Origin: Phycisphaerales bacterium
GTDB lineage: Bacteria > Planctomycetota > Phycisphaerae > UBA1845
Direction: 5' to 3'
Assembly (NCBI GenBank): GCA_013140575.1
Contig: JABFSN010000058.1
Coordinates: 1-64,000 of the forward strand
Length of the DNA stretch: 64,000 nt
The notes beneath the pieces are model-generated. The model did not search any database. It worked only from the letters and a program-made list of their open reading frames with translations, and was not told the origin of the DNA. How positions within the stretch are numbered: the stretch's first letter is position 1; each line of letters begins with the position of its first letter. Below are positions 44,221-56,496 of the stretch, one piece after another. A program made the position numbers and the translations under genes.

Positions 44221-44315
44221 GCCGGTCTGCCGCCCCGCTGGGGCTTCGATGTCGGCGGAGATGGCACCGGGGGCTGACGCCCCCGGCTATTGACTGTCGC
44301 CCCTTCGGGGCTGGC
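44221..44315. repeat. Palindromic dispersed repeat upstream of nuoA
   Basis: Three GC-rich hairpins: gccccgctggggc, ccgggggctgacgcccccgg (44267-44286, perfect) and gccccttcggggc. A second copy at 55399-55497 has the same central palindrome and the same order, with compensatory changes in the outer hairpins (gcccctacggggc, gcccctccggggc). In this copy it is noncoding, between nuoI and nuoA. Confidence 0.8.
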
Positions 44316-44968: not shown

Positions 44969-45202
44969 ATGGGCGGCGCGATAGGGGAACAGAGGTTTCT
45001 TCGAGGAGTGGTCCGGGGCGGGAGGATCGAGATGGGGGACGGGGTCCGGCTGCCTGAAGGTACGGTTGTGCAGATCACGCCGATCGAAATGGACCAGGAT
45101 TCGCTGTTGGAGCTGGTGGGCGAGGCCGTGTCCACCGGGATTTCCGATCTGGCCACACAGCATGACCATTATTTGTACGGATTGGCGAAGCCGAAGGATT
45201 AA
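44969..45202 (+). CDS. Antitoxin-like protein of a PIN toxin pair
   Basis: 77 residues, with a beta-strand motif VRGGRIEMGDGVRLPEGTVV similar to AbrB/DUF104-like antitoxins, and the C-terminal DHYLYGLAKPKD pattern common in the antitoxins of PIN systems. Its TAA overlaps the ATG of the PIN gene by one base. It lies inside the complex I cluster between nuoA and nuoB. Confidence 0.75.
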   Translation: MGGAIGEQRFLRGVVRGGRIEMGDGVRLPEGTVVQITPIEMDQDSLLELVGEAVSTGISDLATQHDHYLYGLAKPKD

Positions 45203-45621
45203 TGGGAAAAGGGGAGACGCTGTTTCTGGACACGGTGGCGCTGCTGGCGCTGGTCAATCGCGATGACGAGCTTCACGAACGATGCGAACGGATTTGGCGC
45301 GAGCACGTGGCCGACGGCTCGCGGTTTATCACCAGCGAATGGGTGCTGGGCGAGTTTCTCGGCGGGGCCTCGCGAAGGCCGTTGCGCGAGGCGGCGTGCC
45401 GGATCGTCGACCGGCTTGCTCGGTCGGAGCGGACCGCCATCGTGCCGGCCTCGCACGAACGGTGGATCGCGGCCTACGAATTGTTCCGCTCGCGATCGGA
45501 TAAGGAATGGTCGTTCGTCGACTGCGGATCCATACTCGTTTGCCAGGAATTGGGGGTTGGGCAGGTGTTCACGCGGGACCGCCATTTCGTACAGGCCGGG
45601 CTGCGCGTGCTGATCGAATGA
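45202..45621 (+). CDS. PIN-domain ribonuclease toxin (VapC-type)
   Basis: 139 residues with the PIN acidic residues: first Asp in LFLDTVALLALVNRDDELH, a Glu in TSEWVLGEF, an Asp in EWSFVDCGSILV and the final TRDRHF. VapC toxins cut tRNA or rRNA and are neutralised by the upstream antitoxin. It forms a unit with the gene at 44969 and interrupts the nuo operon. Confidence 0.85.
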   Translation: MGKGETLFLDTVALLALVNRDDELHERCERIWREHVADGSRFITSEWVLGEFLGGASRRPLREAACRIVDRLARSERTAIVPASHERWIAAYELFRSRSDKEWSFVDCGSILVCQELGVGQVFTRDRHFVQAGLRVLIE

Positions 45622-46277: not shown

Positions 46278-46351
46278 CGATCGGTTCGGGCAGCAAGGTG
46301 CAGTCGTGGTGGTGTGATGAAGAAGGCCGCGGACATGGAACTGGGCAGGGA

Positions 46352-46609
46352 ATGATTCTCGAGTATATCGACGCCGCGCTGTCGAAGGCGAAGTATGAGC
46401 GCCTGGACGAAGGTCGGGACCGGTACTACGGCGAAGTTCCGGTGCTGCGCGGTGTTTGGGCGACGGGTCGGACGCTTGAGGAGTGCCGGTCTACGTTATT
46501 GGAAGTCATCGAGGGATGGCTGATCGTCCGATTGCGGAAGGGGCTGACAATTCCACCGATCGGTAACCGGCGCATCTCGCCGCCGCGAGCGACGCGCGTT
46601 GGGACGTAA
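46352..46609 (+). CDS. hicB: HicB antitoxin
   Basis: 85 residues. Core EVPVLRGVWATGRTLEECR and STLLEVIEGWLIVRLRKG match the HicB fold. Overlaps the hicA start at its 3' end. ATG 46352 is used; GTG 46298 in the same frame is a longer alternative. Order antitoxin-toxin is the reverse of the classic hicAB. Confidence 0.8.
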   Translation: MILEYIDAALSKAKYERLDEGRDRYYGEVPVLRGVWATGRTLEECRSTLLEVIEGWLIVRLRKGLTIPPIGNRRISPPRATRVGT

Positions 46610-46823
46610 ACTGGCACCCCTACGGTGGTCCGAGCTTGTCCGGCGGCTGAAACGATTCGGATTTGGTGGGCCGCATTCGGGAGGTCGCCATCCCTACATG
46701 ATCCGAGACGATCTGGTGCTGACCATTCCAAACCCGCACCATGGCGACATTGGGGTGGAGCTCTTGAAGCGAATTCTGAAGCAGGCGTCCATTTCGAGAG
46801 CGGATTGGATGGCGATGAAATGA
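46599..46823 (+). CDS. hicA: HicA mRNA interferase toxin
   Basis: 74 residues of double-stranded-RNA-binding-like fold: RWSELVRRLKRFGFGG, catalytic-type His in GGRHPYMIR, and a C-terminal LKRILKQASIS helix typical of HicA. TTG start overlapping hicB by 11 bases. It sits between nuoB and nuoC. Confidence 0.85.
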   Translation: MGRKLAPLRWSELVRRLKRFGFGGPHSGGRHPYMIRDDLVLTIPNPHHGDIGVELLKRILKQASISRADWMAMK

Positions 46824-46898
46824 TGGAGGGGTTACGGTCGGCGCGGGGCGGTAGCGGACCGATTTGAATCGCGGACGCGGCCATTGAAGGGCGGAGAT

Positions 46899-47144
46899 GT
46901 GACCGGCGAACAGTTGGTGAAGCACATCAAGGCGCAGCCGTTCAAGCCGTTCCGGATGTATCTGGCGGACGGGCGGGAAGTGCCGGTTGGTCATCCGGAA
47001 TTGGTGTTGTACATCCCCGGGACGCGGACCTGCGTGGTGGCCGATCTGAAGGACAATACGTACGACACGATCGACTTGTTTCTGGTTGCGTCGATCAAAG
47101 TGGGGGCGACCGGGAATGGCGGGCGAAGGCGAAAGCGGGGGTAG
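46899..47144 (+). CDS. 81-aa paralogue 1 of unknown function
   Basis: Contains the QPFKPFRMYLADGREVPVGHPELV core shared with the next gene, then a Lys/Arg-rich end. The two proteins have equal length and clearly arose by duplication. Members with the same core are frequent hypothetical proteins in related genomes (recollection). GTG 46899 after GGGCGGAG is chosen over TTG 46884. Confidence 0.65.
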   Translation: MTGEQLVKHIKAQPFKPFRMYLADGREVPVGHPELVLYIPGTRTCVVADLKDNTYDTIDLFLVASIKVGATGNGGRRRKRG

Positions 47145-47220
47145 GCGGACCGTGGACGCATTGGAGCGCGAGGAGCGATTCAGTAAGCGATTCGGCGGGA
47201 ACTGAATCACGGAGTCCGAA

Positions 47221-47466
47221 ATGACCATCGAACCGCTTCGTGAAGCACTGTCGGAGAGGCCGTTTCGCCCATTCAAGCTTCAATTGGGTGACGGCACGGA
47301 AGTGGCTGTGTCGCACCCTGAATGCGTCGCGTTTCATCCGAAGAGCCTGCGGACGATTCTGGTGGCGATGCCCGACGGAGGTTACAAGGCGATCGATCTG
47401 TTTTTGGTTGCGGCGTTGCACAAGCCGAATGGCCGGACGAGTCCGCCTCGCCGCCGCCGTCGGTGA
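47221..47466 (+). CDS. 81-aa paralogue 2 of unknown function
   Basis: Same length and layout as the preceding gene: RPFRPFKLQLGDGTEVAVSH, a shared IDLFLVAAL motif and a basic PRRRRR tail. Predicted small beta-rich protein. 76 bases separate the two copies. Function unknown. Confidence 0.65.
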   Translation: MTIEPLREALSERPFRPFKLQLGDGTEVAVSHPECVAFHPKSLRTILVAMPDGGYKAIDLFLVAALHKPNGRTSPPRRRRR

Positions 47467-48031: not shown

Positions 48032-48472
48032 TTGGCATCGCTTTCGAAAAACACGGTCGGCAGCGTCAACGTCCTGAAACGGCTGGGTGCGATCCGGCTG
48101 CGAGAGGCCAGGATCCTGTTGAACAAGCAGCAGTTCGCCGGTGCGATTTACCTTGCCGGATACTCCGTTGAATGCTGGTTGAAGGTGGCGATCTGCAAGG
48201 CGCTGGACCTCGACGAACTTCCCGAGACGTTCGCGAGTCATGAACTTGACGTTTTGTTGTTTCACAGCGGCTTGCAGCGGCGCATACAAAAGCGCCGGTC
48301 GCAACAGGCGATGAAGGCGTTTCAAATGGTGGCGGGTGTTTGGCGGATGGACAGGAAAAACGCGATTCGCTACGCGGACCCTCGCGTTTATAACTTTCAG
48401 GATGCCGGTGAGTTCTTGAGGGTGGTGAACGGCAGACAAGGAATCGTCCCTTGGCTCAGAAAACAAATTTAG
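48032..48472 (+). CDS. HEPN-domain protein 1
   Basis: 146 residues, all helical. The core FAGAIYLAGYSVECWLK (~35-51) is the HEPN helix 2 pattern, and SHELDVLLFHSGL (~69-81) fits the helix 3 pattern. HEPN proteins often are RNases or NTase partners in toxin-antitoxin systems, but no clear RX4-6H catalytic motif is visible, so activity is uncertain. Start TTG 48032, 10 bases after nuoC. It overlaps the BolA-like gene by 22 bases. Confidence 0.75.
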   Translation: MASLSKNTVGSVNVLKRLGAIRLREARILLNKQQFAGAIYLAGYSVECWLKVAICKALDLDELPETFASHELDVLLFHSGLQRRIQKRRSQQAMKAFQMVAGVWRMDRKNAIRYADPRVYNFQDAGEFLRVVNGRQGIVPWLRKQI

Positions 48473-48765
48473 TCGTCGCGGCCGGAAAGATCAAGGCGGC
48501 GATTGAGGAGTTTGTGGCACCTGCCGAGAAGGTGAATATTCGCATATTCGCGTCCTCGCCGGGGCTGTTGAGAGCGTTTGTCGGCAGTGATAAGTTCAAG
48601 GGGCTCTCGCCGATGGCCCGCCAGCGCGCGATCTGGAAATACCTGGATGGGAGGCTGAATTGGGACTACCGGCGGTTCTGTGCCGCCGTCCATGCACTGG
48701 ATGTAAAGGAGTTCCAGGAGCGGACGCTGCCTTCCTGGGATAACGGGGGCGGAAACGGTGTCTAA
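48451..48765 (+). CDS. BolA-like (class II KH-fold) partner 1
   Basis: 104 residues. The segment VGSDKFKGLSPMARQRAIW followed by L...RL...AAVHALDVKEFQE reproduces the BolA pattern V-SD-F-G---R-R-(I/M)---L---L----VHAL-----(T/E) by eye. A TTG start with AGGAA upstream overlaps the HEPN gene, and its stop overlaps nuoD by 8 bases. It is probably the HEPN partner or antidote (inference). Low-confidence family name, strong linkage. Confidence 0.6.
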   Translation: MAQKTNLVVAAGKIKAAIEEFVAPAEKVNIRIFASSPGLLRAFVGSDKFKGLSPMARQRAIWKYLDGRLNWDYRRFCAAVHALDVKEFQERTLPSWDNGGGNGV

Positions 48766-49969
48766 CGGCGTACTGACAGTTCAGACCCAGCCCGACGTGC
48801 TGGCCGATCTCGATCGGGAAACGATCGGGCAGGGCGATCTGCGCACCGAGGAGATGCTGGTCAACATGGGGCCGCAGCATCCGGCGACGCATGGGGTGTT
48901 GCGCGTGGTGCTGCGGACGGACGGCGAGATGATCCTGGAGGCCGTTCCGCACATTGGGTATCTGCATCGCTGCGCGGAGAAGATCGGCGAGAATGTTCAG
49001 CCTTATCAGTTCATTCCGTATACGGACCGGATGGATTATCTGGCGGGGATGAACAATAATCAGGCGTTTGCCATTGCGGTGGAGCAACTGTGCGGGATCG
49101 AAGTGCCGGAACGGGCGAAATACATACGGGTTATATTCGCGGAACTGAATCGCATTGCGTCGCATCTGGTGTCGTTCGGGACGTACGGTCTGGACATGGG
49201 TGCGTTTACGCCGTTTCTGTATGCGTTTCGGGAGCGGGAGATGATCCTGGATTTGTTTGAGAGCGCGTGTGGCGCGCGATTAACATACAGCTATATCACG
49301 GTGGGCGGGGTTCACGACGACCTGCCGGACCGGTTTCTGGATGTCCTGTCGGAGTTTCTGGATTATTTCGAGCCGAAGATACCGGAATACAACCAACTGC
49401 TGAGTTTCAACCACATATTCGTCAAACGGACGGGAAACGTCGGCGTGATCAGCGCCGAGGACGCGGTGCGGTGGGCGTTGACGGGTCCGTGTCTGCGGGC
49501 GAGCGGAGTGCATTGGGACCTGCGCAAGAGCACGCCGTACGAGATTTACGACCGGTTCGATTTCGAGATTCCGGTGGGCGTGCCCGGCGGCAGTGATGGG
49601 ATTCCGCGGGGGGTGGTGGTGGGCGACTGCTGGTGCCGGTATTTCGTGCGGGTGCTGGAGATGCAGCAGTCGTGCCGGATCATCCGGCAGGCCATGAAGC
49701 AGATTCCAGACGGAGCCACACAGGCGGACAAGTTGAAGAACCTGAAGCTTCCGGCGGACGAAACGTACGTGGAAATCGAGAACCCGCGCGGTCAACTCGG
49801 TTTCTACATACAGGGCGACGGATCGACGATTCCATCGCGGGTCAAGGCGCGTGGTCCGAGTTTTTGCAACATCTCGATCCTGAACCACATCGGGCGCGGC
49901 TGCCTTCTGGCCGACATACCGGCCATCGTGGGGAGCATCGATATCGTGATGGGCGAGGTGGATCGGTGA
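48758..49969 (+). CDS. nuoD: NADH-quinone oxidoreductase subunit D
   Basis: Quinone-binding 49-kDa-type subunit. NMGPQHPATHGVLRVVL, DRMDYLAGMNNN, IRVIFAELNRIASHL and the C-terminal GSIDIVMGEVDR are diagnostic. 403 residues. GTG 48758, overlapping the BolA-like gene. Confidence 0.96.
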   Translation: MSNGVLTVQTQPDVLADLDRETIGQGDLRTEEMLVNMGPQHPATHGVLRVVLRTDGEMILEAVPHIGYLHRCAEKIGENVQPYQFIPYTDRMDYLAGMNNNQAFAIAVEQLCGIEVPERAKYIRVIFAELNRIASHLVSFGTYGLDMGAFTPFLYAFREREMILDLFESACGARLTYSYITVGGVHDDLPDRFLDVLSEFLDYFEPKIPEYNQLLSFNHIFVKRTGNVGVISAEDAVRWALTGPCLRASGVHWDLRKSTPYEIYDRFDFEIPVGVPGGSDGIPRGVVVGDCWCRYFVRVLEMQQSCRIIRQAMKQIPDGATQADKLKNLKLPADETYVEIENPRGQLGFYIQGDGSTIPSRVKARGPSFCNISILNHIGRGCLLADIPAIVGSIDIVMGEVDR

Positions 49970-50075
49970 CCCATCGGCGGGCGGTGGTTTCACACCGGGA
50001 CGGCGGTCGCTAGAATCCGCACGGCGCGGGCGGGTGTGGTGACCGCGAGGTCTGAATTCGGCACGGAGTTCGACG

Positions 50076-51611
50076 TTGGCTGACGTGACGGCGCTGATTG
50101 TACGGCGGCGAATTGAATACCACGGTTTATCCGCATTAGTGGCAGGTCTGGCCCGGATCGTTTACGGGGCGGCTGCGCCGGTTCTGCGCCGATTTCCAGG
50201 GGCGATTTTCCTGTCGGCGGTCGTGGCCGTTGTGGTGGGGGTCTGGGCGCATTACCTGTTGTTCGAGTTCGTCGACGTGGGGTTGATCGGAAACGTCGAG
50301 ACGAACGCGACTGAGGCGATGGGGTGGTTTGGCGGGCCGTTGACGTTGGATGAAATCCGTGCGGGCCTCGCTTTTCAAAGTGTGCCGTTGGCCGGCGTGT
50401 TGTGCTATGCCGCCTATCCCTTGCAGTACGCGATCGTTCGCGACGTGGTGGGCATGGGGGGAATCCTGGGCTTCATTTCAGTCATTCCGTTGTACAGCAT
50501 CTGGTGGGAACGGAAGGTGGCGGGCCGCATTCAGTCGCGCTCCGGGCCGATGCGGGTGGGCGGCTGGCACGGGTGGGCGCAGACCATCGCGGACGGAATG
50601 AAGCTGATCACCAAGGAGGATTTGTGCCCTGATTCGGCGGACCGGCCGTTGTTCAAGCTGGCCCCGTATCTGGCGTTCGTGCCGGCGATTCTGGCGTTTT
50701 TCGCGTTGCCGTTCGGGACGTATTGGGTGTTCCGGCAACTGGACGTGGCGCTGGTGTTCATTCTGGCGATGCTGGGGGTTGAGGTGCTGGGGGTGATCAT
50801 CGCGGGGTGGGCGAGCAATAACAAATGGAGCGTCTACGGGGCGATGCGCGAGGCGTGCCAGATGGTGTCCTACGAAATCCCGATGGGCATGGCGCTGCTG
50901 GTGCCGATCATGGCCGCGGGTACGTTGAGCCTGACCGCCGTGGGGGACATGCAATCGGGCGGATGGACGACGTGGCTGGTGTTCCGTAATCCGTTTACGT
51001 TCGCGGCCGCGTTGATGTACTACGTGGCGTCGCTGGCGAGTTGCAAACGGGCGCCGTTCGATCTGCCGGAATCGGAGAGCGAGTTGGTGGCGGGTTTTCA
51101 TACGGAATATTCGGGGTTCCGGTGGTCGTTGTTTTTTTTCGCGGAGTACGCGGCCATGTTCGTGGTCAGCGGGCTGTGCGTGATTTTGTTTTTGGGGGCG
51201 TGGTATTCGCCGTTGCCGATGTCGTGGGCGGAGGGACTGGGCGATTCGTTGCCGGCGCGGGCGGTCAAGGGCGTGTTGTTCGCGGGGCCGCTGTGGTTCG
51301 TGACCAAGTGCGTGTTCTTGATTTACGTGCAGATATGGCTGCGGTGGACGCTTCCGCGGATTCGGATCGACCAGGTGTTGTACGCGTGCGTGCAGGTGAT
51401 GCTGCCGATGATGATGGTCATTCTGCTGGGGCATACGCTGTATGAATTGTTCGTGCCGACCGGTGGCATTGTGTGGCGGGTGTTCAATGTGCTGCTGTCG
51501 TTGATCGGCGGAGTGGCGGCGGTCGCCATGGTGGTGGTTGCCGTTTATGGATACGCGAATCGGCGGCGGTTGGTGGGCTCGCTGGGGCTCGAGTTGCTGC
51601 CGGGATCGTGA
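50076..51611 (+). CDS. nuoH: NADH-quinone oxidoreductase subunit H
   Basis: Membrane subunit at the quinone chamber. WWERKVAGRIQSRSGPMRVG, YEIPMGMALL and CKRAPFDLPESESELVAGFHTEYSG family motifs are present (about 9 helices). At 511 residues it has an N-terminal extension of ~100 residues, including two extra hydrophobic segments, compared with ~330-400 elsewhere. TTG 50076. Confidence 0.94.
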   Translation: MADVTALIVRRRIEYHGLSALVAGLARIVYGAAAPVLRRFPGAIFLSAVVAVVVGVWAHYLLFEFVDVGLIGNVETNATEAMGWFGGPLTLDEIRAGLAFQSVPLAGVLCYAAYPLQYAIVRDVVGMGGILGFISVIPLYSIWWERKVAGRIQSRSGPMRVGGWHGWAQTIADGMKLITKEDLCPDSADRPLFKLAPYLAFVPAILAFFALPFGTYWVFRQLDVALVFILAMLGVEVLGVIIAGWASNNKWSVYGAMREACQMVSYEIPMGMALLVPIMAAGTLSLTAVGDMQSGGWTTWLVFRNPFTFAAALMYYVASLASCKRAPFDLPESESELVAGFHTEYSGFRWSLFFFAEYAAMFVVSGLCVILFLGAWYSPLPMSWAEGLGDSLPARAVKGVLFAGPLWFVTKCVFLIYVQIWLRWTLPRIRIDQVLYACVQVMLPMMMVILLGHTLYELFVPTGGIVWRVFNVLLSLIGGVAAVAMVVVAVYGYANRRRLVGSLGLELLPGS

Positions 51612-51636
51612 TGGCCCGCACGAAGGATTAACTGCG

Positions 51637-52317
51637 GTGATTGTGGGAATGAATAGATCGGCCGCCCGCCGGATGTGCGTATGGCTGGCGCTTGCGGCGC
51701 CGGTCGTAATCGTTCCAGCGACGGCGCGTTCGCAAATCGATGAATCGCCGGCGAAGTCCGCTGACATTGACGCGTCGGGAGCTACGTCGTCCGGTCTAAC
51801 GACGGTCGTTCAGGGCGGGTTCGTCGAGACGATCCTGTTTTATTTGTTCGGCGGCGCGGTGCTGGCGTCGGCGATCGGGGTGTGCGTCAGCAAGAGCGTC
51901 GTTCGAATGGCGGTGTGGCTGTTCGGCACGCTGGGCGCGGTGGCCGTTCTGTATCTGTTGTTGGGGGCGGCGTTTCTGGGTGCGGTGCAGTTGATTGTTT
52001 ATGCGGGCGGCACGCTGATATTGTTGATATTTGGGGTGATGCTGACGACCAAGTCGCCGTGGGTGCGATTCGAGGCCACGACGAGCGAGATGCTGGCCGC
52101 GGGCGGCGTGGTCGTTGCGTTGTTCATCGGGCTGGCGACCGTGGTGGCGTCGGACATGACGCGTTGGCCGACGCAGGCGGGTGTGAACGAAGTGGCGACG
52201 GTGAAGTCGCTGGGCGAGTCGCTGCTGACGACGTATCTGGTTCCGTTCGAGGCGGCGAGCGTGGTGCTGCTGGTGGTGATGATCGGGGCGGCGTATCTGG
52301 CGCGACAGGAACGATGA
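51637..52317 (+). CDS. nuoJ: NADH-quinone oxidoreductase subunit J
   Basis: Membrane antiporter-linked subunit: SKSVVRMAVWLFGTLGAVAVLY and GAVQLIVYAGGTLILLIFGVML are diagnostic. Starts GTG 51637 (GAAGGA upstream) or ATG 51649. An unusual N-terminal signal-like segment (residues ~13-35) precedes the first helix. Confidence 0.9.
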   Translation: MIVGMNRSAARRMCVWLALAAPVVIVPATARSQIDESPAKSADIDASGATSSGLTTVVQGGFVETILFYLFGGAVLASAIGVCVSKSVVRMAVWLFGTLGAVAVLYLLLGAAFLGAVQLIVYAGGTLILLIFGVMLTTKSPWVRFEATTSEMLAAGGVVVALFIGLATVVASDMTRWPTQAGVNEVATVKSLGESLLTTYLVPFEAASVVLLVVMIGAAYLARQER

Positions 52318-52334
52318 TCGGCGAGGGGCGAGTC

Positions 52335-52811
52335 ATGTCGCTTCTGAATCGCGTGTCGCCGGTGGAGAGTCTTCAGGAAATCGAGAGCGCCCAGTCGGAC
52401 CGGTATTGGGAAGCGATGGCCTTGGCGGTTTCTGACGGCGGCCACTCGTATGGCGCGTGCTATCTGTTGGGGTACGTCATCGAATTGGCGATCAAGAGCG
52501 CCTATTACAGATTTGTCGGCGCGTCGCCGGTCGCGGATGTGGGGCGTCATCTTCAGGCCTCCGGTCTTAAGGGGCGCGAGCGACATGATCTTGAAGCGTG
52601 GTACGAGATTCTGTTTTCGTCGCGGATTCAGCGGGGGAATCCGATGGATCCCGTTGTTGCTGGAGCCTTCAAGCAGCGGATTCAGGTTGCCGCCCGGCAC
52701 TGGCGCGAGATTCTGCGCTATCGGCGGGCGATCCCCGCGGAGAGCGAGTGCAACGAGCTCCTGGGTATCGCGGACTGGCTGATTCGAAATCATCGATCGC
52801 TGTGGAGTTGA
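52335..52811 (+). CDS. HEPN-domain protein 2
   Basis: 158 residues, helical. The core GACYLLGYVIELAIKSAYYR (~40-59) matches the HEPN1 core, and RHDLEAWYEIL (~83-93) matches its downstream motif. As in HEPN1 no canonical RX4-6H is evident. ATG 52335, 18 bases after nuoJ. Followed 5 bases later by a small gene, repeating the arrangement seen between nuoC and nuoD. Confidence 0.72.
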   Translation: MSLLNRVSPVESLQEIESAQSDRYWEAMALAVSDGGHSYGACYLLGYVIELAIKSAYYRFVGASPVADVGRHLQASGLKGRERHDLEAWYEILFSSRIQRGNPMDPVVAGAFKQRIQVAARHWREILRYRRAIPAESECNELLGIADWLIRNHRSLWS

Positions 52812-52816
52812 CCGCC

Positions 52817-53140
52817 GTGCCGGTTCAAAGACGAAAGGCCAAACCTCCCCACTCGCGACCGGACCTGGTGCGGCGGCTCGCGGTCGAGTTGAAGTCGAAA
52901 GAGGGCCGCTCCGCTCGAACGGCGAAGAACGCACCGCTCGTCATCGAAGAGGAGCAGACGTACGGGCGGGCGCTGCACGTGACGGTTATCTGGGACAAGT
53001 GGTCAGGCGTTCCCCTGGAGGAACGAGGCGCGATCATCACGGACGCTTACAGGCAAGCGGGCCGGGATGCGGAGCTTGAGATCATGACGCTGGTGATGGG
53101 AGTGACGGCGCAGGAGGCTGGGAATCTCGGTATCAGCTGA
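52817..53140 (+). CDS. Small HEPN partner 2 (BolA-like?)
   Basis: 107 residues. A basic N-terminal half precedes a compact domain HVTVIWDKWSGVPLEERGAI followed by IT..AY and VMGVTAQEA. The spacing of W/F-G-x3-5-E-R-x-x-I/V and the final helix resembles BolA but is weaker than partner 1. GTG 52817 with GGAG at 52804 is chosen; TTG 52808 overlapping the HEPN stop is the alternative. Ends 9 bases before nuoK. Confidence 0.5.
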   Translation: MPVQRRKAKPPHSRPDLVRRLAVELKSKEGRSARTAKNAPLVIEEEQTYGRALHVTVIWDKWSGVPLEERGAIITDAYRQAGRDAELEIMTLVMGVTAQEAGNLGIS

Positions 53141-53149
53141 TTGGATGGG

Positions 53150-53470
53150 ATGGCGATGTTCACGGTAGGGTTGACCCATTACCTTGTGCTGGCCGCGGCG
53201 GTGTTTTGCTGCGGGCTGTTCGTGATGATGACCAAGCGGAACGCGATCGGCATTCTGATCGGCGTCGAGCTATTGCTGAACAGCGTGAACATCAATCTGG
53301 TGGCGTTCGATCGCTATCGGCCGATCGGCGGGACGGACGGGCAGATTTCGGCGTTGTTCGTGATCGTGCTGGCGGCCGCGGAAGCGGCGGTGGCGGTGGC
53401 TATCTGTATGAATCTGTATTCGAACCTGAACACGATCGACGTGGACCGGGGCGACGCGCTGCACGGCTAG
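53150..53470 (+). CDS. nuoK: NADH-quinone oxidoreductase subunit K
   Basis: Three-helix membrane subunit: RNAIGILIGVELLLNSVNIN with its buried Glu and FVIVLAAAEAAVAVAICMNL are diagnostic. 106 residues. TTG 53141 is an alternative start. Confidence 0.95.
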   Translation: MAMFTVGLTHYLVLAAAVFCCGLFVMMTKRNAIGILIGVELLLNSVNINLVAFDRYRPIGGTDGQISALFVIVLAAAEAAVAVAICMNLYSNLNTIDVDRGDALHG

Positions 53471-53595
53471 CCGGATTGATTAGGCCACGCGCGTGAGTTA
53501 TGTGCGATGCGACCGTGATGTGGCAAAGCGTCGTTCATTCGGCCGATTCGATCTAACCTTTGGCCAGCGGCGGAGTTTCGTTCAGGCAACTTACA

Positions 53596-53868
53596 ATGGA
53601 ACCCTTTGGCTGGTTTTTCTACGTCATGATTGGATCGCTCCTCTTGGCAGGAGCATGGAAATGCATCGAGGCGAGTATTGAATTGAAAGAGGATCTGCGT
53701 CGCAAGTGCCGTCTATTGAAATTGGACATGTCGGAAAGTCAGGTGAAAAGCACACTGGGAGAACCGTCAAAAGTTGAGATGCAAGCTCCAATGTGCCACT
53801 GGAAGTACCCAGGTGGAGCAACGGTGACCTTCACGAATGGAAAGCTCACTGGATGGAACGAGCCGTGA
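53596..53868 (+). CDS. Membrane protein with BamE-like domain
   Basis: 90 residues. One N-terminal helix (FGWFFYVMIGSLLLAGAWKC) then MSESQVKSTLGEPSKVE and YPGGATVTFTNGKLTGW, the SmpA/BamE beta-sheet pattern. Clearly more AT-rich than its neighbours and inserted between nuoK and nuoL, so it looks recently acquired. Not BamE itself (no lipobox). Function unknown. Confidence 0.6.
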   Translation: MEPFGWFFYVMIGSLLLAGAWKCIEASIELKEDLRRKCRLLKLDMSESQVKSTLGEPSKVEMQAPMCHWKYPGGATVTFTNGKLTGWNEP

Positions 53869-53883
53869 TTCGCAGAACACCAT

Positions 53884-56496
53884 ATGGAATCGTATAGCAA
53901 CTACGAAATCTATCTGATGACCGGGACGATGATCCCGTTCGTCAGTTTCGTGATCCTGATGCTGTTCGGGCATCGGCTGGGCAAGCCGCTGTCCGGATGG
54001 GTGACCGTGGCGGCCATGGCGTCGAGTTGCGCGCTGGCGACGATGACGCTGGTCGGGTGGATGGGCGAAATCGACGGCGGCACGTCGGCGGGGCTGACCG
54101 CGGCGGCGCAACTGAATCAGGTCACCTGGGCGCACCTGGGTTCGATTCCGCTGAATGTCGGCGTCAAGCTCGATTCGCTGACGGTCGTCATGTATTTCAT
54201 GGTCACGTTCGTGGCCACGTGGATATTCGTGTTCAGCGTCGGGTATATGGCCGGTCACAGCGACGAAGTGGACGGTCAGTCGAAATACCACCGGTTTTTC
54301 TGCTACCTGTCGCTGTTCGGGTTCAGCATGTTGGGGCTGTTGTGCAGCAGCAGCCTGCTGTTTCTGTTCGTTTTCTGGGAATTGGTGGGGCTGTGCAGTT
54401 ACCTGCTGATCGGGTTTTATTTCGACCGCAAATACGCGTCCAATGCGGCCATCAAGGCGTTCGTCACCAACCGCGTGGGGGATTTCGGGTTTCTGTTCGG
54501 CCTGATGATGGTGGCGTTCTTTTTGGGGACGTTTGACCTGGAACAGGCGGCGGCACGCTTCGCCGAGCAGTATCAATCACACATCGGTCTGTTCGCCGGG
54601 GACATGACCATCGACCTGCTGGGATGGGAAATCAGCGGCGGCATGGTGGCCACCATGATGGGCATCGGGTTGTTCTGCGGGGCGATGGGCAAGAGCGCCC
54701 AATTCCCGCTGCACGTCTGGCTGCCGGATGCCATGGCCGGTCCGACACCGGTGAGCGCGTTGATTCACGCGGCCACGATGGTCGCGGCCGGGGTTTATTT
54801 GGTAGCGCGGGTGTTCCGATTGCTAACGCCGGACGCACAGATGTTCATCGCCATTATCGGGGCGATCACGCTGACGCTGATGGCACTGATCGCCATCGTG
54901 CAGGTGGACATTAAGAAATGCCTGGCGTATTCGACGCTGTCGCAACTGGGCTACATGATATTTGGAATGGGCTGCGGGGCGTGGATCGCGGCGTTGTTCC
55001 ATCTGATGACGCACGCGTTTTTCAAGGCCATGCTGTTCCTGTGTTCGGGGCAGGTCATCGAGGGCTGCCACCACGAGCAGGACATGCGGAAGATGGGCGG
55101 GCTGATCCGGAAGATGCCGGTGACGGCGTTCACATTCCTGATCGGCGTGCTGGCGATCGCGGGGTTCGGGATTCCGTTGGCGGGCATCGGACTGGGCGGT
55201 TATTTCAGCAAGGACGAGATACTGGCCGTCGCGTGGGACCGGGCGTTCCTGTGGGGCGAGCCGTTGGAACATCACGGCGACGGTCACGCGGACAGTACGA
55301 CCGACGACGCCCCAGATTCCATGACCCACACCGGGCCGCAAGCAATTCGACTGGTTTCGCGTCACGCTCACGTTTTCGGTTGGAACGGGGGAGTGATTGC
55401 CGGCGCGTCTGCCGCCCCTACGGGGCTTGTTGAGTTTGGGCGACGGGACCGGGGGCTGACGCCCCCGGCTATTGACTACCGCCCCTCCGGGGCTAGCCAA
55501 GATCGAGATACTAGCCGAGATCGAGATGCTAGCCGAGGTCGAGACACTCAAGGAGCACCTGCGGGATTCGCGTTGGCGTCCGATCCGCAGCCTGACGAAC
55601 ACGGGGCGGCGCACGACGCCGGCGGCGGCGAGCATCACCCGGCGGCCGGTGCGTGGCAGCGCAGCGGCGGCGACCGGCTGTGGCGGGTATTGTTCTGGTG
55701 CGCGCTGGCGACGGCGTACGTCACGCCGTTCTACATGATGCGGGCGTGGTGGATGACGTTCATGGGCAAGCCGCGGGACGAACACGTTTACCACCACGCC
55801 CACGAATCGCCGTTGATGTGGTTCCCGCTGGTGGTGCTGGCCGTTTTTACGTTTGTCTCGAGCTATTGGCTGTTTCGCCCGCTGATCGCCGACGCGGCAC
55901 CGACTGCGTCCGGCGGGATTCTGGTAGCCGGTTACGACGGCGTGGCCGATGACGCCGCGGCCGCGGCGGGCCAGCTGATTCACGTTCACGAGGCCCATCA
56001 TTGGCTGGCGTACGGCGTAGGCGGATCGTGGCTGATCGCGTTCATCGCGGCCATCGCCATTTATCGCGGTGGACTGGCGTTGCCGACGCGATTGAAAGCG
56101 GCGTTCGGCCCGATCGCAACGCTGCTGGAACGCAAGTACTATTTCGACGAAGTGTATGGTCTCGTTTTCGTGAAGGGCTGCGTGGCGTTCGCGCATGTCT
56201 GCCGGTTTGTGGACACGTACATTGTGGACATGTTCGCCAATCTGCTGGCGCGCATGACCGAACGGCTGGCGAATTTTTCGGGCAACGGCGTGGACGCCCG
56301 GGTCGTGGACGGGGTGTTCAACGGCATTGCGGTGACGTCGTTCGATATTTCCGACATGTTTCGCAGTCCGCAGACGGGGCGCATTCGCAACTACGTCCTG
56401 TTCGCAGCGGGCGGCGCGGCGCTGATTGTGTTGTTTTTGATTGTCATGGCGAGTCTGTCGGCCGGTCCGGTGGCGGTGGCGTCGACCGGCGGCTGA
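53884..56496 (+). CDS. nuoL: NADH-quinone oxidoreductase subunit L with repeat-derived insert
   Basis: Antiporter-like proton-pumping membrane subunit, about 16 helices. LVGLCSYLLIGFY, LHVWLPDAMAGPTPVSALIH and GCHHEQDMRKMGGL are diagnostic. At 870 residues it is much longer than the usual ~610. Most of the excess is a loop at ~460-598 between the YFSKDEILAVAWD region and ATAYVTPFYMMRAWW. Within the loop, a copy of the dispersed palindromic repeat and an 18-base tandem repeat are read in frame (GLTPPAIDYRPSGA and QDRDTSRDRDASRGRD). Confidence 0.93.
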   Translation: MESYSNYEIYLMTGTMIPFVSFVILMLFGHRLGKPLSGWVTVAAMASSCALATMTLVGWMGEIDGGTSAGLTAAAQLNQVTWAHLGSIPLNVGVKLDSLTVVMYFMVTFVATWIFVFSVGYMAGHSDEVDGQSKYHRFFCYLSLFGFSMLGLLCSSSLLFLFVFWELVGLCSYLLIGFYFDRKYASNAAIKAFVTNRVGDFGFLFGLMMVAFFLGTFDLEQAAARFAEQYQSHIGLFAGDMTIDLLGWEISGGMVATMMGIGLFCGAMGKSAQFPLHVWLPDAMAGPTPVSALIHAATMVAAGVYLVARVFRLLTPDAQMFIAIIGAITLTLMALIAIVQVDIKKCLAYSTLSQLGYMIFGMGCGAWIAALFHLMTHAFFKAMLFLCSGQVIEGCHHEQDMRKMGGLIRKMPVTAFTFLIGVLAIAGFGIPLAGIGLGGYFSKDEILAVAWDRAFLWGEPLEHHGDGHADSTTDDAPDSMTHTGPQAIRLVSRHAHVFGWNGGVIAGASAAPTGLVEFGRRDRGLTPPAIDYRPSGASQDRDTSRDRDASRGRDTQGAPAGFALASDPQPDEHGAAHDAGGGEHHPAAGAWQRSGGDRLWRVLFWCALATAYVTPFYMMRAWWMTFMGKPRDEHVYHHAHESPLMWFPLVVLAVFTFVSSYWLFRPLIADAAPTASGGILVAGYDGVADDAAAAAGQLIHVHEAHHWLAYGVGGSWLIAFIAAIAIYRGGLALPTRLKAAFGPIATLLERKYYFDEVYGLVFVKGCVAFAHVCRFVDTYIVDMFANLLARMTERLANFSGNGVDARVVDGVFNGIAVTSFDISDMFRSPQTGRIRNYVLFAAGGAALIVLFLIVMASLSAGPVAVASTGG
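55399..55497. repeat. Palindromic dispersed repeat inside nuoL
   Basis: Same element as 44221-44315: hairpins gcccctacggggc, ccgggggctgacgcccccgg (55449-55468) and gcccctccggggc. It contributes residues to NuoL without shifting the frame or adding a stop. Confidence 0.85.
55493..55546. repeat. 18-base tandem repeat, three copies, inside nuoL
   Basis: Units beginning ctagcc(a/g)ag(a/g)tcgaga start at 55493, 55511 and 55529. In the nuoL frame they read as Arg/Asp-rich hexapeptides. In another frame they read LAKIEI/LAEIEM/LAEVET, a heptad-like pattern. They directly adjoin the palindromic repeat. Confidence 0.8.

Follow-up and report, generated by a model that had tools for sequence, protein, structure and literature searches.

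HEPN proteins count among the most common toxins of prokaryotes, and the small partner known for them is a nucleotidyltransferase. BolA proteins are known for Fe-S handling; to our knowledge, AMPylation is not a known activity of the BolA fold, and we know of no report of a genetic link between BolA and HEPN genes. Our search of the full-text literature, with subscription journals and preprints outside its scope, found no published HEPN–BolA pairing. Among described systems, the nearest to the locus reported here is HEPN/MNT (HepT/MntA) (PMC7641770, PMC4621449), in which MntA AMPylates HepT (PMC7641770). A second point of reference is the BolA family, with its class II KH-like fold, in which the Fe-S ligands of BOLA3 are the C-terminal His96 and the loop Cys59 (PMC10380394, PMC8125686). 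A third is the AF0298-type HEPN (PDB 2hsb), which has lost the motif His, carries a conserved His located N-terminally and keeps the basic residue, and for which a 2013 survey suggested an alternative active site (PMC3710099). A fourth, PDC-M28A, is an unvalidated phage-defence candidate of PADLOC.

In the 64,000-nucleotide stretch of Phycisphaerales DNA that we analysed (the window), a complex I (nuo) operon with the gene order I-A-B-C-D-H-J-K-L-M-N, the tested subunits of which are supported by Pfam, contains two pairs of small genes, each consisting of a HEPN gene and a BolA-like partner gene and both oriented with the operon (Table 1). We refer to the first pair as type 1 and to the second as type 2. 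An earlier note, made from the sequence alone, had described the second pair as lying between nuoJ and nuoK, 3.6 kb from the first; the pair is indeed located there, and the spacing (48765 to 52335) is correct. The first pair is flanked by NuoC (Pfam Complex1_30kDa, 9.5e-42) and NuoD (Complex1_49kDa, 1.8e-93). At the second junction, the four genes from nuoJ to nuoK run in the same direction and are separated by 17, 5 and 0-15 bp, the nuoK frame being open from 53141 with in-frame ATGs at 53150 and 53156. The GTG start of PART2 aligns with the conserved MP start of its relatives; an alternative TTG start at 52808 would overlap the HEPN2 stop as TTGA. We found no sigma-70-like promoter site in 52200-53300, so transcription from the housekeeping operon is the simplest assumption for HEPN2 and PART2.

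Table 1. Coordinates of the two HEPN-partner pairs and of the genes flanking the second pair in the window
Feature	Position	Strand	Description
nuoJ	51628..52317	+	Upstream flank of HEPN2/PART2; Pfam Oxidored_q3 2.7e-33
HEPN2	52335..52811	+	158 aa, contains GACYLLGYVIELAIKS; type-2 HEPN-fold protein, predicted toxin
PART2	52817..53140	+	107 aa, GTG start; BolA-like partner, predicted antitoxin
nuoK	53141..53470	+	Downstream flank of HEPN2/PART2; Pfam Oxidored_q2 3.3e-25
HEPN1	48032..48472	+	146 aa, type-1 HEPN; first pair, nuoC/nuoD junction
PART1	48451..48765	+	104 aa, BolA-like partner; 22 bp overlap with HEPN1

Other small genes are also found in this operon. A PIN-domain gene (Pfam PIN, 3.6e-14) and a 77-aa ORF form a VapBC-like layout between nuoA and nuoB (44969-45621). 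A UPF0150 (HicB-like) ORF and a HicA gene (2.4e-11) lie between nuoB and nuoC (46349-47466), and after them come two small ORFs that resemble each other and have no Pfam family, one of 86 aa (46884-47144) and one of 81 aa (47221-47466). Between nuoK and nuoL, a 102-aa ORF (53560-53868) gave a weak BamE match (0.009, under the cut-off). The Acido-Lenti-1 RNA (RF01687) matched the plus strand of the window at 44267-44312 (57 bits) and at 55449-55494 (54 bits), the latter inside the nuoL frame (53884-56496), where it is translated through as RGLTPPAIDYRPSGA.

HEPN2 has no match in Pfam, NCBIfam or PADLOC, and HEPN1 has none in Pfam. An AlphaFold2 model of HEPN2 built from 13 relatives (pLDDT 91) adopts the helical-bundle fold of HEPN domains, and its top VIA-align rows, from Z 13.1 downwards, are HEPN or ROQ domains. 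The best of these is TT1696 (1ufb; Z 13.1, 119 residues, 2.8 Å), followed by the sacsin HEPN (Z 12.9), ST0689 (11.9) and AF0298 (2hsb, 11.9), with HepT toxins also among the matches (Z about 8.5); Foldseek gave probabilities of 0.99-1.00 to 4nqf, 1ufb and 1wol. The HEPN1 and HEPN2 families match each other directly as profiles (hhalign 97%, E 1e-11), and a relative of HEPN1 passes the Pfam HEPN model (1e-6). The label of HEPN that the earlier note gave to both proteins is therefore well founded.

The RX4-6H motif of HEPN RNases occurs at no conserved position in the 13 HEPN2 and 10 HEPN1 sequences compared. Instead, Y43, E50, K54, W123, R128 and Y129 of HEPN2, and also H84, are invariant or, in the case of H84, nearly so. 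This arrangement resembles that of AF0298, in that the motif His is missing, a His (H84) is placed N-terminally and a basic residue (R128) is kept, and by analogy H84 and R128 may be used as an alternative active site; unlike AF0298, HEPN2 is constantly paired with a BolA-like gene. The likeness to PDC-M28A is confined to the other type: HEPN1 matches this model at 8e-4 and type-1-like HEPNs do so down to 1e-10, whereas HEPN2 does not, and no tested partner matches a PDC-M28 model.

PART2, the partner of HEPN2, has no match in Pfam (the BolA and MNT families included), NCBIfam or PADLOC, and its HMMER matches in PDB (8srz, 1t23 and others), at E 0.17 or worse, were judged to be due to chance. 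In its AlphaFold2 model (pLDDT 86.7), the elements follow the order alpha-beta-beta-alpha-alpha-beta-alpha, as in BolA, and the top 11 VIA-align rows are all BolA proteins, with Z of only 5.9-4.9, below the value of 8 that marks a clear match for this tool. The best row is YrbA (5nfm; Z 5.9, 66 residues, 3.5 Å), and Foldseek also ranks BolA first (4pug, probability 0.99). PART2 thus looks like a BolA-like fold, as judged from a predicted structure with modest Z; for the weaker BolA-like pattern that had been noted, no sequence match was found, and BolA is the top fold match. For PART1 the likeness extends to the sequence, with a match to Pfam BolA at 0.002 (18.8 bits, under the curated cut-off of 25.7) and with BolA entries as the only PDB matches of its family profile at E up to 1 (best 0.006). 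Neither partner retains the BolA Fe-S ligand set, that is, the C-terminal His and a loop Cys or His: no His or Cys is found among the invariant columns of PART2, where the RHR-type signature is missing as well. In PART1, 7/10 sequences have the C-terminal His, and no loop Cys is conserved. In genome G022, an additional 87-aa ORF of BolA-like appearance (L100, 9406-9669) and a 188-aa ORF are located between PART2 and nuoK.

The locus can be compared with HEPN/MNT. As in that system, two small genes are adjacent and one of them encodes a HEPN-fold protein, the model of which is matched by HepT chains. The differences are that HEPN2 has no RX4-6H at a conserved position, that PART2 has no MNT match in Pfam or NCBIfam, and that BolA (Z 5.9) outranks two putative nucleotidyltransferases (Z 3.8 and 3.7) in the fold comparison of PART2. 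The likeness of PART2 to the BolA family lies in the element order and overall fold of the model; PART2 differs from that family in its missing signature and ligands and in being genetically tied to a HEPN gene.

Are the two pairs copies of one another? A direct hhalign comparison of the PART1 and PART2 families gave P 0.027 with the first alignments and 0.11 with larger ones. Each family nevertheless matches two intermediate partner families, which adjoin other HEPN genes (L016, L030, L123, L125, L139, L147 and L148), at E 1e-7 to 1e-10 with scores of 44-60; in controls, 100 column shuffles of each pair reached 22.5 at most, and reversed alignments scored about 10. These profile matches support a relationship between the two partner families through the intermediates. 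The earlier note had named the absence of any structural relation between the partners as the point on which its reading would fail; the partners are linked by these matches, and BolA is the fold indicated for each of them. Its reading needs one refinement: the copies, though related, are of separate types and do not represent a single module that was inserted on two occasions. A recent duplication inside the operon was rejected, since the pairs belong to different families with relatives at their own junctions.

Further types exist. In a pattern search, a third partner family was HEPN-paired in 6/7 named records, all from planctomycete metagenome genomes, the seventh being cut by a contig end. 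This third type is found at L148 (in the window's own genome, C226:16037-16725), L123, L030 and L139, with the partner motifs PSERQDLVWRI and SMILTLTPDE. At L016, L125 and L142, in three genera, HEPN-partner pairs lie directly 5′ of similar large membrane-protein ORFs, that beside L016 having no Pfam match in the stretch tested, and at L147 a pair lies immediately 5′ of an ATP synthase gamma-subunit gene.

The pairing itself is strict. In 114 genomes of the order, PART2 was located directly downstream of HEPN2 in 17/17 strong copies (E below 1e-20), and no strong HEPN2 lacked its partner; in a 100-genome sample, HEPN2 was present in 15 genomes and the partner lay downstream at 16/17 loci. For type 1, HEPN1 was found upstream in 10/10 strong PART1 loci. 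Three PART2 copies have no intact HEPN beside them: G022 has two of these, and the third is in G063, where an in-frame deletion has removed the HEPN core and the remnant is fused to the intact partner; the tally of three partner-only loci to no HEPN-only locus is suggestive but not significant. HEPN and partner co-evolve, with correlated distances in both types (Mantel r 0.75 for type 2 and 0.76 for type 1, p 1e-4 each); HEPN1 distances correlate weakly with those of NuoD (r 0.33, p 0.07). Pairwise pN is 0.17-0.23 and pS 0.70-0.77, the latter near saturation, and dN/dS, measurable for the type-1 genes, is about 0.1, indicating purifying selection. Homologues in the same order, consistent pairing and dN/dS rule out a chance pair of ORFs, and the earlier suggestion that the module is a real unit is borne out. 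Both types have the small, adjacent, co-directional and co-inherited genes that characterize the layout of type II toxin–antitoxin systems.

We surveyed the nuo operons of the family for the position of these modules. All ten strong type-1 copies are inside a nuo operon, nine at nuoC/nuoD and one at nuoB/nuoC (G039). For type 2 the figure is 7/20: six at nuoJ/nuoK, namely in the window, G015, G029, G049, G022 (partner only) and G063 (of another family; partner and HEPN remnant), and one at nuoC/nuoD (G088, of a third family). Together, 17/30 copies, which are not independent of one another, lie within nuo operons; because such an operon makes up about 0.3% of these genomes, this is far from a chance placement. 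The placement of the module is non-random, with the same few nuo junctions being reused, and the preference for such junctions that the earlier note had proposed is real. Since each type has its own habitual junction in the relatives, this preference is a property of the lineage, not of this genome alone.

Could the module then serve complex I itself, with the BolA-like protein aiding Fe-S delivery or assembly and the HEPN protein acting as a helper or as an RNA-level regulator of nuo? The density of copies in an operon of this size would suit such a role, as would the C-terminal His kept in most PART1 sequences and the function of mitochondrial BolA proteins in Fe-S protein assembly (PMC5014550). 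However, PART2 has no conserved His or Cys, and most relatives have the same operon without the module, which is carried by 12/45 genomes of the NuoD tree and appears and disappears within a genus. Furthermore, 13/20 type-2 copies lie elsewhere, for example next to housekeeping genes for acyl-CoA dehydrogenase/3-hydroxyacyl-CoA dehydrogenase (three genera), ATP sulfurylase (f4 family), isocitrate dehydrogenase or NDK, and the window's own genome has another type-2 copy at an acyl-CoA dehydrogenase site (L002, C12). Its patchy distribution and the number of copies outside nuo speak against a role in complex I, which we regard as quite unlikely.

Unrelated inserts are also found at nuo junctions, namely Uma2, an IS200-like Y1_Tnp protein, a 394-aa kelch-like ORF, PIN and HicA; at nuoC/nuoD, the inserts at L061, L063, L064 (genus g29) and L074 comprise the Uma2 nuclease family (one genus) and Y1_Tnp (G016). 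Such company is what would be expected of a selfish or near-neutral passenger, settled where the junctions of a strongly expressed operon tolerate inserts, so that nothing in the pair would explain the site. Yet, throughout the family, each large insert at nuoJ/nuoK either is a type-2 module or contains its partner, type 1 is the commonest insert at nuoC/nuoD, and the genes are under purifying selection. This and the enrichment in nuo operons weigh against a mere passenger, an explanation that we consider very unlikely.

The distribution of the module across the family is labile. On a NuoD tree with 46 rows, comprising 45 family genomes plus one outgroup, the changes, counted as gains or losses alike, number nine for the nine type-1 carriers and five for the five type-2 carriers, so that presence is as scattered as it can be. 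Three genomes with near-identical NuoD show three states: G028 is empty, G039 has type 1 at nuoB/nuoC, and G049 has type 2 at nuoJ/nuoK. When filled and empty alleles were compared (G028/G049, G028/G039 and G031/G047; flank identity 90-99%), identity stopped at the upstream stop codon and resumed at the downstream start codon, with no ORF broken. HEPN2 is 46% identical to the copy in G029, the NuoK of which is 87% identical. Strict vertical inheritance at nuoJ/nuoK is not supported: the six partners from this junction cluster on the partner tree without support (46/38), and the nearest relative of PART2 of the window is the partner in G063, from another family, at odds with the NuoD distances. 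A plasmid search for the module and a single-sequence search of genome contigs gave no match.

High turnover and fast divergence are also consistent with a role in phage defence by abortive infection, in which the HEPN protein would be the effector and its BolA-like partner the sensor, instead of a classical addiction pair. HEPN1-like families match PDC-M28A, although this model is a computed candidate; HEPN2 and PART2 have no PADLOC match, the window's operon contains no recognised defence genes, and the plasmid search gave no match. We therefore think phage defence unlikely.

Taking these observations together, we consider that HEPN2 and PART2 probably form a module resembling a toxin–antitoxin system, composed of two genes, in which the antitoxin has a BolA fold and expression depends on transcription of the housekeeping operon. 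In favour of this are the consistent pairing, the lack of a promoter-like site within 52200-53300, the HEPN fold with its HepT matches, the correlated distances, the scattered presence, the fast divergence of HEPN2, the PIN and HicA genes in the same operon and the PDC-M28A matches of type-1-like HEPNs; against it are the lack of a conserved RX4-6H motif and a likeness of PART2 to BolA that comes from a predicted model with modest Z. We infer a toxic HEPN protein, its neutralization through binding of the partner, and expression of the pair by readthrough transcription. HEPN2 would cleave or block RNA, and the BolA-fold product of the adjoining gene would bind HEPN2 and keep it silent. The pair, without a promoter-like site of its own, would be transcribed as part of the host operon. 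If expression of the operon or supply of the partner dropped, for example under stress, during phage takeover or once the locus is lost, growth would be arrested by unbound HEPN.

A wider proposal, which we hold to be doubtful, is that these pairs constitute a new toxin–antitoxin class, in which a BolA fold restrains a HEPN effector in parallel planctomycete families, with a real preference for respiratory operons and with complex I expression wired to HEPN release. If the module is as we propose, its BolA fold would be novel among antitoxins and would tie BolA proteins to growth control. The gene-perfect reuse of complex I junctions, which are filled in some strains and empty in others that are almost identical, also provides a natural system for following how a small module settles in an essential operon without a recombinase of its own.
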